A stretch of 64,000 nt of DNA from the NCBI RefSeq assembly GCF_001273775.1, contig NZ_CP011801.1, positions 372,001 to 436,000 on the forward strand, read 5' to 3'. Positions within the stretch are counted from its first letter, which is position 1. Every line of letters begins with the position of its first letter. Source of the DNA: Nitrospira moscoviensis. Lineage in GTDB: Bacteria; Nitrospirota; Nitrospiria; Nitrospirales; Nitrospiraceae. Of this stretch, positions 45,546-56,282 are shown in pieces. The notes beneath the pieces were generated by a model. The model was not told the origin of the DNA. It saw nothing but the letters and a program-made list of their open reading frames with translations, and did not search any database. The position numbers were made by a program, and so were the translations under genes.

Positions 45546-45911
45546 CTATTCTCTCGGCAAGCCCGTAATCTCTCGGAGCGGCCGGACTTCCACCGACCCA
45601 ATGCGTGCGCCCGGCACGAGACCGGCGATGCGAATCGCGTCGTCACGATCCTTGGCATCGATCAGAAAGTAGCCGGCCAGTTGCTCATGGGTTTCGATGA
45701 AGGGCCCATCGGTGACGGTGGGTTTGCCGTCACGCACGCGCACGATCGCCCCGGTCGCGGCCGGTTGCAACGGCGATGCATGGACATACTGTCCCTTGCC
45801 GTTGAGTCGGTGGCAGAGCTGGATCGACTCCGCCAGCAACTGCGCACGAGTGGCCGCGCTCATCTTGGCAAAGGCTTCTTCATCGTGGTGAACCAGCAGC
45901 AGGTATTTCAT
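45546..45911 (-). CDS. DGPF/YCII-family protein
   Basis: 121 residues. MKYLLLVHHDEEAFAKMSAA, TVTDGPFIETHEQLAGYFLI with the DGPF motif, and SVEVRPLREITGLP. It is close to the DGPF protein at 49677-50036 (both MKYL..., IGSVEVRP). Site B at 45980-46008 is about 70 bases upstream, so it should belong to the ECF42 regulon. Confidence 0.87.
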   Translation of the reverse strand: MKYLLLVHHDEEAFAKMSAATRAQLLAESIQLCHRLNGKGQYVHASPLQPAATGAIVRVRDGKPTVTDGPFIETHEQLAGYFLIDAKDRDDAIRIAGLVPGARIGSVEVRPLREITGLPRE

Positions 45912-46638: not shown

Positions 46639-47898
46639 CTAGTCCGCCAGCTCCCTCAACCGCCGCTCCAGAAACCGCCGTTCCGGCTCTTGTTTCGTGA
46701 GGGTGAGGGCGCGCTCATAGGACGATCTCGCTTCCGAGTTTCTGCCCAGTCGTCGGCAGAGATCCGCGCGGGCGGAATGGAGCAGGTGATAGTCCGCAAG
46801 CTCGCCGCCTGCCAGGATACGGTCGATCAGTTCCAGCCCCGCCGCCGGCCCGTCGCGCATCGCGACCGCCACGGCGCGGTTCAATTCGACGATCGGGGAC
46901 GGCTCCACCCGCATGAGAAGATCGTACAGGGCGACGATCTGCGCCCAATCGGTCTCGGTGGTGCTCGCGGCTTCCGCATGGACGGCGGCGATCGCCGCTT
47001 GCAACGTGTAGGGGCCGAACCGCCGCGACGACAGCGCCTGCTCCACCAGCACGATGCCTTCTCTGATGTGGTCGCGATTCCACCGCGCGCGGTCCTGCCG
47101 TTCCAAGAGAACGAGATCGCCGGTCTCCGACGTCCGCGCGGCGCGCCGGGATTCATGGAGCAGCATGAGAGCCACCAAACCCATGACCTCCGGCTCCGGC
47201 AACAGCTCCAACAGCAGGCGTCCTAACCGGATGGCTTCGCCCGACAGGTCGGCCCGCGTGAGGAACGGCCCGGACGAGGCGGAGTAGCCTTCGTTGAAGA
47301 CGAGATAGATCACGTGGAGCACGGCGTCCAACCGCTCCCGCAATTCCGACGGCGGCGGCACTTCGTAGGGAATGCGCGCGTCGCGGATTTTCGCCTTGGC
47401 CCGTACGATGCGCTGGGCCAGGGTGGACGGGGCGGACAGAAACGCCCGGGCGATTTCCTCGGTCGTGAGGCCGCAGACTTCCCGGAGCGTCAGGGCGATT
47501 TGCGCCTCCGGTTTGAGCGACGGATGGCAACAGGTAAAGATCAACCGCAGGCGGTCGTCGTCGATGTGCTCGTCCGTCTGCTCCAGCGGATCGCTGGTGG
47601 TCGTCTCGATGTGTGTGGCGAGCTCCTGGAGCGAGGCGTCGTAGCGGGCCCGCCGTCTCATGCCGTCGATCGCCTTGAAGCGGCCGGCGGAGACGAGCCA
47701 TGCTCGGGGATTGGCCGGCACCCCGTCACGCCCCCATTGCTCGACCGCCGCGGTAAAGGCCTCGTGAAGCGCTTCTTCGGCGGCGTCAAAATCGCCCAGC
47801 AATCGAATCAACGTGGCGAGGACGTGGCGCGATTCGGCGCGGTAGACGTCTTCCACCATCTGACGTGCGCGGTCGGTCGTCCCTTCGTCCACGGCCAT
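46639..47898 (-). CDS. ECF sigma factor of the ECF42 type
   Basis: 419 residues, more than twice the size of a normal ECF factor. Sigma region 2 lies at about 15-80 ([40 protein letters not shown]), region 4 at about 115-175 ([20 protein letters not shown]), and a long C-terminal extension of helical repeats ([40 protein letters not shown]) resembles TPRs. ECF42 factors have this form and control DGPF genes without an anti-sigma factor. It follows the OsmC gene by seven bases. Confidence 0.92.
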
Positions 47899-47905
47899 CT
47901 CCCCA

Positions 47906-48352
47906 TCACGCCTCCACCGTGACCTCGGTCGTCACCGAGTTCGCGATGAAACATTCGGCATGGGCCCGCTCATGCAGCTCCTTGAGCTGCTCCGGCGTCG
48001 GCGGCGTGGGCCCGCCGAACACCACGTGAGGACGCAGCACCACGCGGGTGATTGCGAGTTTGCCCTTCTGGTTCTTTTCCAGAACGCCCACGGCGCGATC
48101 TTCGTAGCGATCCACGACGAATCGTCTCTTGGCCGCCACCGCCAGGAAGGTCAGCATGTGACAGCTCGACAAGGCGGCCACGAGGGCTTCCTCTGGATTC
48201 ACATGGGCGGGATTGCCCCGATAGGCCGGCGCAGCCGACGCCGCCACGCGCGTTCCGCCTTCGAAGGTCAGTACGTGATCCCGGTTATAGGACTCATACG
48301 TGAACGTCTCCGATTCCCGCTTCCATTCGAGCGCGATCTTGTGCTCCGACAT
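47906..48352 (-). CDS. OsmC/Ohr-family protein
   Basis: 148 residues. [40 protein letters not shown] with the first redox cysteine (SSCH), and [19 protein letters not shown] with the second. Both cysteines are there, so peroxide reduction is possible. AAAGGACG precedes the ATG. It is the first gene of an operon with the ECF sigma factor. Confidence 0.87.
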
Positions 48353-48398
48353 ACGTCGTCCTTTCTGTAGGGGCGCAGCGGTCCGTGAATGGGAAGGA

Positions 48399-48519: not shown

Positions 48520-49653
48520 ATGAGCGAATCCGGCGAAGGACCGAGAATCGTCGCGCGGTATCAGCTGACCGGCCGGGAAGCAGAGGCCCGCGCCGCCGCC
48601 GACCGCGTCTGCTTCGACCAAACGGTCGAGGCCGCCGAAGAGAGCCTTCCCCCCGGTCTGCGGGCGGAGGTCGTGGGCCGGATCGAAGCCTTTCGCCTCC
48701 TGTCACCCGCCCGCTACGAAGCCGCGATCAGCTATCCCGGTCGCCTGCTCGGCGGCCGCTGCGCCGGGCTCCTGAATCTCCTGTTCGGCACGAGCAGCCT
48801 GCGCGCCGGCGTCCGCTTGCTGTCGTTCGAGCTCCCCGATGAATTGCTGTTGAGATGGCGCGGACCGCGGCTCGGCATCCGAGGACTCCGGGACGCGACC
48901 GGCGTGCATGACCGGCCGCTGGTCTGTGCGGTGCTGAAGCCGCTCGGCCGGTCGCCGCGGGATCTGGCGGAGCTGGCCGCGCAGTTCACCCGTGGCGGCG
49001 TGGATCTGATCAAGGACGATCAAGGTTTAATGGACCAGTCGTTCTGTCCCTTCGACGAACGGATCGCGCGGTGCGCGGAAGCCGTGGCGCAAGGAGCCGC
49101 GGAGCGCGGGCGGCCCTGCCTCTATTTCCCGCATGTGAGCGGTGAACCGGAAGAGATGCGGCGGCGCGCGCGACGGGCCGTGGTGGCCGGCGCCGGCGGC
49201 CTGCTCGTGGCTCCCGGCCTGACCGGATTCGGTGCGCTCCAGGAGCTGGCCGACGACGAGGCGTGCGCCTTGCCCATCGCCAGTCATCCTTCACTGCTCG
49301 GCACATACGGGGTCGATCCGGACAGCGGGGTCGCGCCCGCCGTCCTGTACGGCCGGCTGCCTCGGCTCGCCGGCGCCGACATCTCGATCTATCCCACTTT
49401 TGGAACGGGCTACGCGATGACGAGGTCGGACTGTACGGCCGTCGCGGAAGCTTGCCGCGCGCCGTGGCGCCAGATCACAGCGACACTGCCGACCGCCGCC
49501 GGCCGGATCGCGGTGGAGCACGTGGCGGAATTGGGAGCGCTGTACGGACGGGACGTGCTGTTCATACTCGGGAGCCGTATCCAACAGGATCCGGCCGGCG
49601 TGGCCGCCGCCACAGGGCGATTCGTCCGCGAAATCGAACGGGCGGTCGGCTGA
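48520..49653 (+). CDS. RuBisCO-like protein (form IV)
   Basis: 377 residues with the RuBisCO large-subunit layout. The catalytic lysine in CAVLKPLGRS is kept; GGVDLIKDDQGLMDQSFCPF retains the Lys-Asp-Asp of the metal site but has Gln for Glu; ASHPSLLGTYG keeps the histidine but lacks the arginine; IYPTFGTGYAM has no loop 6 lysine. Carboxylation is therefore excluded. Some relatives act in methionine salvage or isomerise sugar phosphates. ATGs at 48385 and 48487 are also in frame. It diverges from osmC. Confidence 0.88.
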   Translation: MSESGEGPRIVARYQLTGREAEARAAADRVCFDQTVEAAEESLPPGLRAEVVGRIEAFRLLSPARYEAAISYPGRLLGGRCAGLLNLLFGTSSLRAGVRLLSFELPDELLLRWRGPRLGIRGLRDATGVHDRPLVCAVLKPLGRSPRDLAELAAQFTRGGVDLIKDDQGLMDQSFCPFDERIARCAEAVAQGAAERGRPCLYFPHVSGEPEEMRRRARRAVVAGAGGLLVAPGLTGFGALQELADDEACALPIASHPSLLGTYGVDPDSGVAPAVLYGRLPRLAGADISIYPTFGTGYAMTRSDCTAVAEACRAPWRQITATLPTAAGRIAVEHVAELGALYGRDVLFILGSRIQQDPAGVAAATGRFVREIERAVG

Positions 49654-49676: not shown

Positions 49677-50036
49677 TCAGTCCGCGCAGCCGAGCTCTTT
49701 CATCGGCCGCACTTCGACGCTCCCGATGCGGGCGGCCGGAAAACTCGACGCGATGCGGATCGCGTCGTTCAGGTCCCGCACGTCGAGCATCAAAAACCCG
49801 CCCAATTGTTCCTTCGTTTCGGCAAAGGGCCCGTCGGTGACCGAGGCCTTTCCGTTCCGGACCCGCACGGTCGTGGCGGTGTCCACCGGATGGAGCGGCG
49901 AGGCGGCGAGGAGTTGGCCGGCCTTCTGCAGCTTGTCGCAGTAGGCCATCGATTCGTCCGACAGGGCCTGCCGTTCGTCCTTCGGGATCGCGTTCAACAC
50001 CGCTTCTTCGACATACACCAGACAAAGATATTTCAT
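49677..50036 (-). CDS. DGPF/YCII-family protein
   Basis: 119 residues. MKYLCLVYVEEAVLNAIPKD, SVTDGPFAETKEQLGGFLML, IGSVEVRPMKELG. AAAGGAG precedes the ATG. Site A is 46-74 bases upstream, the best ECF42-like promoter in the window. The gene converges with the RuBisCO-like gene and faces away from a sigma-54 activator gene. Confidence 0.88.
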   Translation of the reverse strand: MKYLCLVYVEEAVLNAIPKDERQALSDESMAYCDKLQKAGQLLAASPLHPVDTATTVRVRNGKASVTDGPFAETKEQLGGFLMLDVRDLNDAIRIASSFPAARIGSVEVRPMKELGCAD

Positions 50037-53469: not shown

Positions 53470-56004
53470 TCAGGCGTGGATGTCCTGTCGTTGCCGCTGT
53501 GTGACCACCCGGCGGATCGTATCGCAGACCAGATTGAAGGCCGTGCCCTTCGACAGATAGGCCGCCGCGCCCGCCTCGTACATCAGCTGCTCCAGCTTCG
53601 GATCTTCGTGCATCGAGAGGCCGATGATCGCGACGTCGGGCCTGAGTTGAGTGATCTGCCGCGTGGCGTCGATGCCGTTGAGCCGCGGCATGTTGATGTC
53701 CATGAGCACGACGTCGGGGCGCAGGCTGCCCGCCAATTCCACCGCCATTTCGCCGTCGACCGCCTCGGCCACGACCTCGTAATCCTTCTCGCTCTCGATC
53801 ATGCTGCGTAGCCCCTGCCGCATGATTTGGTGATCGTCCACGAGCAGCACCCGGATGCGGGCCGCCGAGCGGTCCGGCGGTGAGGCGGCCGCCGGCTCGC
53901 CGGCCAGGCCGCTGTCCGGTGCAACGGCGTGCTCGACCCGGTCCACCGTGCGGAGCGGCAAGAGAATCGTCACCCGGGCTCCGCCGCCCGGCACGGACGC
54001 GGCGCGCATGAAGCCGCCGGCGACGGCGAGTTGTTCCCGCAAATTGAAGAGCCCGAACCCTCCGTCCTGGGTGGGAGACGTCCGGCTGCCCGCGCGGAAT
54101 CCCATGCCCCGATCGCGCACCTGCATGGCCACGTACCGGCCGAGCCGGCGGATCCGGACCGTCGCGGACGTCGTGCCCGAATGTTTCAGCACGTTGAAGA
54201 GCAGCTCATGTAAGGACTGATGGGCGATGCGCAACGCGTCGGGATCCAGCGGCTTGGGCCTCCGGTCGTCGGTCACCGTGACCGTAAGGCCGTGTCGTTC
54301 GAGCTTGGCCGTGACCCACTGCACGGCCGCCGCCAGGTCGCCCTCGTTCCCCAAGGTGGGTGGGCGCAGATCGCTCATCAGCTCGCGCGTGTAACTCAGC
54401 GCTTCCTTGAGCAAGCCGGTGACGGACATCAGAGCCATCTGGAGGGCGGCCGGCGCCGTGCGCTGCAAGGCCGCCAGCTTCATATGGCACAGGGCCAAGG
54501 TCTGGGCGAGGTTGTCGTGCAGTTCGGTCGCCAGGCGCTGGCGCACCTGTTCTTCGATCTTCCGCAGTTGCGCCGCCAGGGATTGGAGCCGCGCCTGGTA
54601 GCTCAACAGAGCCTCCGTCCGCTGCTTGCGTTCCGCGATCGCCAGACAGGTGAACACGTAGCTCGTCCGGTTGCCCGCCTCTTCCAACGGAAAGGCCGAG
54701 CATTCCACATCCAACGGGGCGCCATCTTTTCGCCGAAAGACCTGCTCCGTGCCTGTCCCGCCGCGGCCGGTCTCCAACACACGCCTCACCAGACACGGCT
54801 CCGCAGGGCAACAGTGGGAATCTTCCGGTGGATGGAGGACCTCATGCAGCGGGCGATGCAGAAGCTCGTCCGCTTCGTACCCCAGCATGGCGGCGGCCGC
54901 CCGATTGATGAAGGTGCAGCGGCCGTCTTGGTCCAGCCCGAAGATCCCCTGGTCCGTCGTTTGGAGCAGGAGATGGTACTGCGCCTCGGCCGACGTAGCC
55001 TTCAGCCGTTCGGCTTGGGCCAAGTCGCATTCGCGACGGAGGCGTCGCTGCATCCAGATCAATAAATAGAAGATCGGCGACAGAATCGCCAGACCGATGG
55101 TCCCGATCCGGAGATGATAGGTCTGGATCGGGGCGATCAGCGCCTCGGTGGGCATGCGCACGAGCACGGTCCAATGAAAGGGGTCCGCCTGTCCCCATCC
55201 GCGCGTGAGGCTGTACCCGGTCATGACGCGGATGTGGCGCCGCAGATGGTCTTCTTCGATATAGCCCGGCTCCCCGCCTTTGCTCAACTCGAAGGAGGGC
55301 AGGTGCAGGGCGGCGATATTCATGCGCCCCTTGTGCAAGAGGTCCGAATCGATGTAGGCGATCCCGTCGTTGTCCAGCACTTGATATTCGATGTTGGCCA
55401 GCATGGAGTGACGGCCCTGCAAACTGCGGATCGTTTCCACGGCGATGGCTTCCAGGACCGGGATGGACACGCGGCTGGTGATCGCCCCTTGAAAGGACCC
55501 GTCCTGATCGTAGAGGGCCGCTGAAATGGCGATCGTATCCGGCGCGCCGTGCTCCGTGACAAACGCGTCGACCCCGCCCATGAACATGGCATCGGGTTTC
55601 ACGGCCGCCCGCGCATGGATCTCCTCGAACCAGGTCGCGCGGCTCACGTCGGTCCCCTGCATCGTCGGCGGAGAGGCGGCCACGATGCGCCCCGATCGAT
55701 CCGCTACGCCGAGCCAATGATAATTGCCATAGGTCTCCCGCATGCGGTCCAGATACGTCTGGACGAACTGGGGGTCGCCGTGAGAGGGGGACGATAAGAT
55801 GCCGGCCATGATGCGCATGTCGGCATAACGCTCGAAGACCATCCGATCAAATTTGATGGCGATCTCCGAGGCGCCCAGTGCCAGCGCTTCGCCGGCCGTC
55901 TGGAGAAGGGCCCGTTCCACGTATCGCCAGCCGATGACCCAGGTAGCCACCGTCACCAGGGCGATCGCGGCAATGAGAAACGGCAAGCGGAGGTAGGCCC
56001 GCAT
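53470..56004 (-). CDS. Cache-PAS histidine kinase fused to a receiver domain
   Basis: 844 residues. Two transmembrane helices (about 5-25 and 300-320) flank a Cache-like outer domain (LGVADRSGRIVAASPPTMQG). Then a PAS (GIFGLDQDGRCTFINRAAAA), a HisKA_3-type kinase with the phosphoacceptor histidine in LATELHDNLAQTLALCHMKL, an ATPase domain, and a receiver (VLLVDDHQIMRQGLRSMI, DVVLMDINMPRLNGIDATR). The receiver is of the NarL kind but has no DNA-binding domain behind it. ATG 56004 is chosen; a start 30 codons earlier lacks a ribosome site. Confidence 0.9.
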   Translation of the reverse strand: MRAYLRLPFLIAAIALVTVATWVIGWRYVERALLQTAGEALALGASEIAIKFDRMVFERYADMRIMAGILSSPSHGDPQFVQTYLDRMRETYGNYHWLGVADRSGRIVAASPPTMQGTDVSRATWFEEIHARAAVKPDAMFMGGVDAFVTEHGAPDTIAISAALYDQDGSFQGAITSRVSIPVLEAIAVETIRSLQGRHSMLANIEYQVLDNDGIAYIDSDLLHKGRMNIAALHLPSFELSKGGEPGYIEEDHLRRHIRVMTGYSLTRGWGQADPFHWTVLVRMPTEALIAPIQTYHLRIGTIGLAILSPIFYLLIWMQRRLRRECDLAQAERLKATSAEAQYHLLLQTTDQGIFGLDQDGRCTFINRAAAAMLGYEADELLHRPLHEVLHPPEDSHCCPAEPCLVRRVLETGRGGTGTEQVFRRKDGAPLDVECSAFPLEEAGNRTSYVFTCLAIAERKQRTEALLSYQARLQSLAAQLRKIEEQVRQRLATELHDNLAQTLALCHMKLAALQRTAPAALQMALMSVTGLLKEALSYTRELMSDLRPPTLGNEGDLAAAVQWVTAKLERHGLTVTVTDDRRPKPLDPDALRIAHQSLHELLFNVLKHSGTTSATVRIRRLGRYVAMQVRDRGMGFRAGSRTSPTQDGGFGLFNLREQLAVAGGFMRAASVPGGGARVTILLPLRTVDRVEHAVAPDSGLAGEPAAASPPDRSAARIRVLLVDDHQIMRQGLRSMIESEKDYEVVAEAVDGEMAVELAGSLRPDVVLMDINMPRLNGIDATRQITQLRPDVAIIGLSMHEDPKLEQLMYEAGAAAYLSKGTAFNLVCDTIRRVVTQRQRQDIHA

Positions 56005-56072
56005 CGGTGGATGAGAATCAGAGAGGTACCGCACGGCACGGAGGCTGTACGTGAAATGCGGCCCACTAGCAG

Positions 56073-56088
56073 CTAGGAAAACCCCTAG
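56073..56088. promoter_or_regulatory. Palindrome upstream of the hybrid kinase
   Basis: CTAGG-AAAACC-CCTAG, 16 bases, about 70 bases before the kinase start. The arms are perfect. Possibly a site for a response regulator; the binder is unknown. Confidence 0.35.
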
Positions 56089-56282
56089 TTTCACGGCCGG
56101 GCCGGCGATCCTCGCCCGTCGCGCCTGCCGAAGAGCGGGTCAGCGCGGCGTGATGTCGGCTGTCATCACAGTGTAGAGAGTGCGGCTTGGTTACGGGGAT
56201 CCGGGAAGAAGCGCGGTGCCCTTGCGGCTTTCGGGAGGACGTGAGGTCGGCGCGCCGCCGGCTCACATCCTCCCGCCGACTC

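Follow-up and report, generated by a model that had tools for sequence, protein, structure and literature searches.

A RuBisCO-like protein of Nitrospira moscoviensis from a Nitrospirota lineage of the DeepYkr family with altered active-site residues

The genome of Nitrospira moscoviensis was found to encode, in the stretch of 64,000 nucleotides analysed here and called the window (contig NZ_CP011801.1, positions 372,001 to 436,000), an intact RuBisCO-like protein (RLP) of the DeepYkr family, the members of which so far studied are 5-methylthioribulose-1-phosphate (MTRu-1P) 1,3-isomerases. Within this family the protein belongs to a lineage made up of Nitrospirota sequences only, in which active-site residues kept by the sister lineages have been exchanged, the partner genes found beside those sisters have been lost and the gene is under purifying selection. 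The reading we prefer, which we hold tentatively and would place a little short of probable, is that the protein is a working non-carboxylating sugar-phosphate isomerase or enolase, descended from an MTRu-1P 1,3-isomerase and remodelled in the Nitrospirota, with MTRu-1P or 5-deoxyribulose-1-phosphate as substrate. A sequence-only reading of the window had named the protein a form IV RLP and had left its reaction open; the class is upheld by the clade in which the protein falls, and the reaction is still a prediction, an MTRu-1P-type isomerisation being the best one available.

RLPs illustrate the uses to which the RuBisCO fold was put before CO2 fixation and alongside it, and only for a few of them has the reaction been established. 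In this case a lineage-wide RLP of nitrite oxidisers can be traced to a family of known reaction, from which it is set apart by a small number of residue swaps and by lost partner genes; these make the question of a same or a new reaction directly testable. No paper describing this lineage, or a Nitrospira with an RLP, was found in the literature searched, and one may exist elsewhere. The comparison also brought out a widespread mtnK-mtnA-transketolase-RLP cassette; the same literature gave no paper on an RLP and a transketolase in methylthio-sugar salvage.

The gene and its setting

The reading frame is intact from the ATG at 48520 to the stop at 49653. A GTG at 48385 lies in frame and would lengthen it, but alignments of homologues to the protein begin at about residue 9, so that 48520 is the likelier start. 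The protein matched the Pfam family RuBisCO_large (E 1.7e-22) and was the sole RuBisCO-family match in the genome (4,589,485 bases, one contig). Named records carrying homologues were those of Nitrospira, for example Ca. Nitrospira defluvii FP929003.1. The gene and its neighbours are as follows.

46639..47898, minus strand: ECF-type sigma factor with DUF6596 and a TPR-like end (ECF42 type), from domain matches
47906..48352, minus strand: OsmC-like gene, divergent neighbour of the RLP gene
48520..49653, plus strand: RLP gene, 377 aa, DeepYkr family, Nitrospirota KDDQ lineage
49677..50036, minus strand: YCII/DGPF-domain gene, convergent neighbour of the RLP gene

The OsmC, DGPF and ECF42 genes claimed as neighbours by the sequence-only reading are therefore present, and it was also right that no methionine-salvage gene adjoins the RLP gene, MtnP and MtnA being encoded elsewhere in the same genome. 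In the loci compared, none of the OsmC, DGPF and ECF sigma genes turned up as a conserved neighbour of RLP genes in other genomes, and they thus tell little about the function of the RLP. The ECF42-type sigma factor forms a local module with DGPF genes, and nothing was seen that ties it to the RLP. Two YCII/DGPF-domain genes (45546-45911 and 49677-50036) and glyoxalase-type genes flank the sigma factor gene, with the OsmC and RLP genes interspersed in this module. Further along the window, a long open reading frame on the minus strand (53470-56094) was taken by eye to encode a sensor histidine kinase with a terminal response-regulator receiver domain.

Fold, family and phylogeny

An AlphaFold structure, for which 42 relatives were used alongside the window protein, was predicted with very high confidence (mean pLDDT 93, pTM 0.92). 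It superposed best on 3qfw, an RLP of Rhodopseudomonas palustris (Z 47.3, rmsd 1.4 Å over 349 residues, 38% identity), which also ranked first by sequence among the structures solved so far (E 4.3e-67). As R. palustris has two RLPs and its other RLP structure, 2qyg, bears the title rlp2, 3qfw is very probably RLP1. This DeepYkr protein is a 5-(methylthio)ribulose-1-P 1,3-isomerase, which turns its substrate into 1-(methylthio)xylulose-5-P and 1-(methylthio)ribulose-5-P in vivo and in vitro (PMC5893883).

The best-scoring NCBIfam models were those of the enolase MtnW, though both were missed (TIGR03332, 160.9 against a cut-off of 513.6 bits; NF007095, 204.9 against 409), as was the OiaX model NF042437 (88.1 against 700 bits); the RuBisCO models stayed far under their cut-offs, with 123.7 against 497 bits for form III. 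MtnW (YkrW), the 2,3-diketo-5-methylthiopentyl-1-phosphate enolase, has the superfamily and fold in common with the window protein but carries KDDE, where the window protein has KDDQ, and lies in a separate clade. OiaX (3-oxo-isoapionate-4-phosphate decarboxylase) is of the same superfamily, whereas the window RLP has no sugar-acid catabolic neighbours, and the RLP2 and Photo RLPs (2qyg, 1ykw) share superfamily and fold (Z about 45) but only about 25% identity with it.

A careful maximum-likelihood tree was calculated for 80 RLPs (supports are given as bootstrap/SH-aLRT), and a quick tree of 114 RLPs agreed with it. One clade (100/99) took in the window RLP and 3qfw, together with the RLPs linked to a cupin or a transketolase that are described below, and left out the MtnW, Photo-type and Oia-type references; the Photo-type reference, from a photosynthesis gene region (L209), stood outside on a long branch. 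Three parts were distinguished in this clade, namely (a) cupin-linked RLPs together with 3qfw (93/73), (b) a group (93/77) in which most RLPs are linked to a transketolase and which spans Firmicutes, Chloroflexi, Chromatiaceae, Planctomycetes, Spirochaetia and Lokiarchaeota, among others, and (c) a lineage of Nitrospirota only, which includes the window RLP (95/90). Parts (b) and (c) are sisters (joint clade 96/87), so that the KDDH RLPs linked to transketolase genes in Clostridium, Chloroflexi, Chromatiaceae, rhizobial plasmids and elsewhere are the sister lineage of the window RLP. The peculiarity that the sequence-only reading saw in this protein is thus real but is no one-off, being lineage-wide in the Nitrospirota and nested in a family of MTRu-1P isomerases; the protein falls into a lineage of its own that lacks residues kept by the rest of the family, and not into one of the functionally known clades with a full set of their active residues.

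The window RLP is 62-63% identical to the RLPs of another genus (L055 and L056) against about 55% inside its own. Horizontal transfer from that genus was considered and rejected, since the protein groups with its own genus in the tree; a long stem there accounts for the lower identity, and no transfer is needed.

Active-site residues

The motifs of the window protein are VLKPLG (residues 138-143), KDDQ (165-168) and FGTGYAM (294-300). Aligned with RuBisCO and with the family, the positions of interest are the following, all on the plus strand.

48937..48939: K140, equivalent of RuBisCO K175, invariant across the family
49012..49023: K165-D166-D167-Q168, equivalent of K201-D202-D203-E204; the fourth residue is His in sister lineages and Gln here
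49285..49287: H256, equivalent of RuBisCO H294, kept in the alignment
49396..49419: residues 293-300, TFGTGYAM, loop-6 region; the family motif N-[FY]-G-G-R-F-[SA]-F, with its invariant Arg297, is lost
49504..49506: R329, standing in the phosphate-binding loop where RuBisCO has G381; the KDDH members sampled all have Gly

In RuBisCO, G381 is a phosphate-binding glycine.

Residues were counted in 114 sequences (67 KDDH rows and 47 KDDQ rows), and the counts are not independent, the sequences being related and a few genomes occurring in both sets. The pattern used for the contig scan, D[ILM]IKDD[QH][GS], restricts position 168 to Q or H, and the Q/H split outside the Nitrospirota is based on the best 80 of 541 matches; a profile search of 396 genomes of the phylum, unrestricted at this position, supports the same split. 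All 114 sequences kept K140, K165, D166 and D167, and also H256 where that position was present. H168, R297, P326 and G329 were each found in 67/67 KDDH rows. In the Nitrospirota lineage, position 168 was Gln in 47/48 rows, the one further row having Ser; R297 occurred in none of the 46 KDDQ rows having that position, P326 was never present in KDDQ rows, and R329 was found in 43/46 of them. The window RLP has Q, G, A and R at positions 168, 297, 326 and 329, where KDDH members have H, R, P and G.

With RLP1 (probably 3qfw) and the R. rubrum RLP Rru_A1998, the window protein therefore has in common the fold (Z 47), the clade (100/99), K140, K165-D166-D167, H256 and the shortened KP motif, but it differs from them in KDDQ instead of KDDH, in the lost Arg of the loop-6 region and in the change of the phosphate-loop Gly to Arg. 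Loss of one arginine, gain of the other and the exchange of His for Gln suggest, from the alignment, that phosphate or metal may be held differently. The change looks stepwise, because early Nitrospirota branches have either KDDS with Gly329 kept or Q168 combined with a His or Gln in position 329. The former was observed in an early-branching RLP of the Nitrospiraceae (L065:7818-8996), possibly an intermediate.

Three of these motifs had been cited by the sequence-only reading against CO2 fixation. The replacement of the catalytic loop by FGTGYAM stands, the loop-6 lysine (K334) being absent from residues 293-300 as it is from other RLPs of the family. KDDQ for KDDE, the RuBisCO metal site with its carbamylated lysine, is a change of E204 alone, the equivalents of K201, D202 and D203 all being kept. 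LKPLG, on the other hand, is no sign of lost catalysis, since a KP motif shorter by one residue (KP-xG) is common to all 114 KDDH and KDDQ sequences, and the gap after KP amounts to a single residue, with the K175-equivalent lysine retained. The conclusion itself was correct: although the fold is common to both, the missing loop-6 lysine, the replaced E204, the low RuBisCO model scores and the grouping with RLPs make it extremely improbable that the gene encodes a genuine RuBisCO or serves autotrophy in Nitrospira, and CO2 fixation by the window RLP is for practical purposes excluded.

Partner genes in sister lineages and their loss

Five loci of one Nitrospirota family in part (a) (L074:7439-9037, L075:7204-8799, L076:7867-9450, L079:7990-9573 and L080:7346-8932) encode an RLP with a cupin fused to its C-terminus, and in L077, L078 and L081 a cupin gene follows the RLP gene. 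The cupin profile matched 3jzv (Rru_A2000; E 1e-27), which acts as MTXu-5P sulfurylase in the MTA-isoprenoid shunt and is paired with the RLP Rru_A1998 (PMC4958253). Judged by these similarities, the fusion would appear to be an MTRu-1P isomerase and MTXu-5P methylsulfurylase in one chain.

In part (b), the N-half and the C-half of a transketolase lie ahead of the RLP gene in 39 and 42 loci, respectively, among the best 80 of 541 matches, neighbours being assigned by similarity searches. In Clostridium ljungdahlii (L183) the halves are themselves preceded by mtnA and mtnK, as they are on plasmids of Rhizobium rosettiformans and Mariluticola. The widespread cassette reads (sugar ABC transporter)-mtnK-mtnA-transketolase N-half-transketolase C-half-KDDH RLP (L183:3671-9107, L212:689-6113, L214:630-6050 and also L134-L190). 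The transketolase pair holds in it the place that the cupin has in the MTA-isoprenoid shunt, and our guess is that this transketolase cleaves 1-methylthioxylulose-5-phosphate.

In part (c), none of the 47 KDDQ loci had a transketolase, cupin or MTA-salvage gene nearby. The N. moscoviensis genome, in contrast to the setting of RLP1 and Rru_A1998, has no cupin partner anywhere, a search for the MTXu-5P methylsulfurylase cupin giving no match at E <= 1e-8. It also lacks the dedicated transketolase of the RLPs in part (b): the best match to the C-half subfamily was 30% identical, against 66-100% in most genomes having the pair.

The loss of both known partner types, together with purifying selection and with the replacement of four otherwise invariant positions by residues that were then conserved (Q168 throughout the 47 rows, R329 nearly so), would fit a neofunctionalised RLP acting on another phosphorylated ketose or keto acid, in which the relocated Arg and the exchange of His for Gln would be adaptations, perhaps to a different metal or none. 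The Nitrospirota KDDQ RLPs would then be a functionally new type, which dropped both partners and now carries out another reaction based on enolisation, one found in these nitrifiers only. The catalytic lysines, the acidic pair and the histidine are unchanged, however, and no partner gene is consistently linked to the RLP, so that nothing indicates a particular new substrate. A new function is a serious possibility, which we nevertheless regard as rather doubtful.

Substrate supply and the predicted reaction

Both MtnP (C1:3490637; 339 bits against an NCBIfam cut-off of 275) and MtnA (C1:1695753, over its cut-off) are encoded in the window genome, and MTRu-1P should therefore form. The class II aldolase family gave no match there, which means that neither a recognisable MtnB nor the aldolase of the dihydroxyacetone-phosphate shunt is encoded; as the cupin is missing too, the RLP is the only recognised candidate in this genome for acting on MTRu-1P.

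In the reaction that we propose, the substrate would be a small 5-substituted ketose 1-phosphate supplied by MtnP and MtnA, the likeliest being MTRu-1P or 5-deoxyribulose-1-phosphate, its analogue without the methylthio group; the RLP would remove a proton adjacent to the carbonyl. The kept lysines (K140, K165), the acidic pair (D166, D167) and H256 would do the chemistry, with re-protonation elsewhere, and the product would pass to an enzyme yet to be recognised, the cupin and the dedicated transketolase being absent. Such a conserved isomerase is favoured by the closeness to 3qfw, by the well-supported clade with cupin- and transketolase-linked RLPs, by the cupin or transketolase partners of these sisters, in some loci with mtnA and mtnK, and by the combination of MtnP and MtnA with missing class II aldolase and cupin in a genome whose RLP gene is under selection. 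Against it, a conserved reaction would not predict the loss, in the window RLP and nearly all its lineage, of H168, R297, P326 and G329, which every sampled KDDH member keeps. The absence of MTA-salvage genes beside the KDDQ genes also speaks against it, as do the occurrence of MtnA in 375/396 genomes of the phylum whether the RLP is present or not, and the Nitrospira genomes that hold only RLP fragments. Nor do class II aldolases replace a missing RLP: this idea was tried and dropped, the family being found in 22/38 RLP-positive and 17/28 RLP-negative genomes (Fisher p = 1).

Selection, repeated loss and a frequent neighbour

Among intact Nitrospirota copies, dN/dS was 0.11-0.28 (12 pairs), and the gene is thus under purifying selection and in use. 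Its presence in Nitrospira is scattered, and several genomes retain fragments only: G025 has three pieces with the parts between them missing (L198, on G025:C16), and short fragments were found in G196 (L199), G152 (L200), G094 (L201), G127 (L202) and G222 (L203). The RLP is therefore dispensable in the genus; it is useful and yet has been lost repeatedly. These remnants, and others, could be taken to mean that the protein is catalytically dead or vestigial and on its way out of Nitrospira. The dN/dS values, the confident full-length predicted fold and the fact that the lineage as a whole has kept the catalytic residues as well as the new Q168 and R329 argue otherwise, and we consider such decay quite unlikely.

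Hardly more probable is that the RLP works with a B12-binding radical SAM protein, encoded directly downstream in several Nitrospiraceae genera, for instance in the disposal of its by-product 5'-deoxyadenosine or on the same substrate. The radical SAM gene follows the RLP gene within 0-65 bp in L057, L059 and L062, and most of L122-L135 show synteny of the two, separated by a single HD-domain gene. A close homologue is, however, present in nearly every genome searched, even in those that lack the RLP or keep a fragment of it, which makes the link weak, and in the window genome the gene lies 1.75 Mb away (C1:2176210); the adjacency is explained by shared ancestral gene order. The radical SAM protein is about 730 aa long (L057:8906-11104, L059:8933-11125, L062:5455-7719), is near-universal in the Nitrospiraceae sampled and scored well under the cut-off of every NCBIfam model that it matched. 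In G025 the RLP remnant still adjoins this gene.
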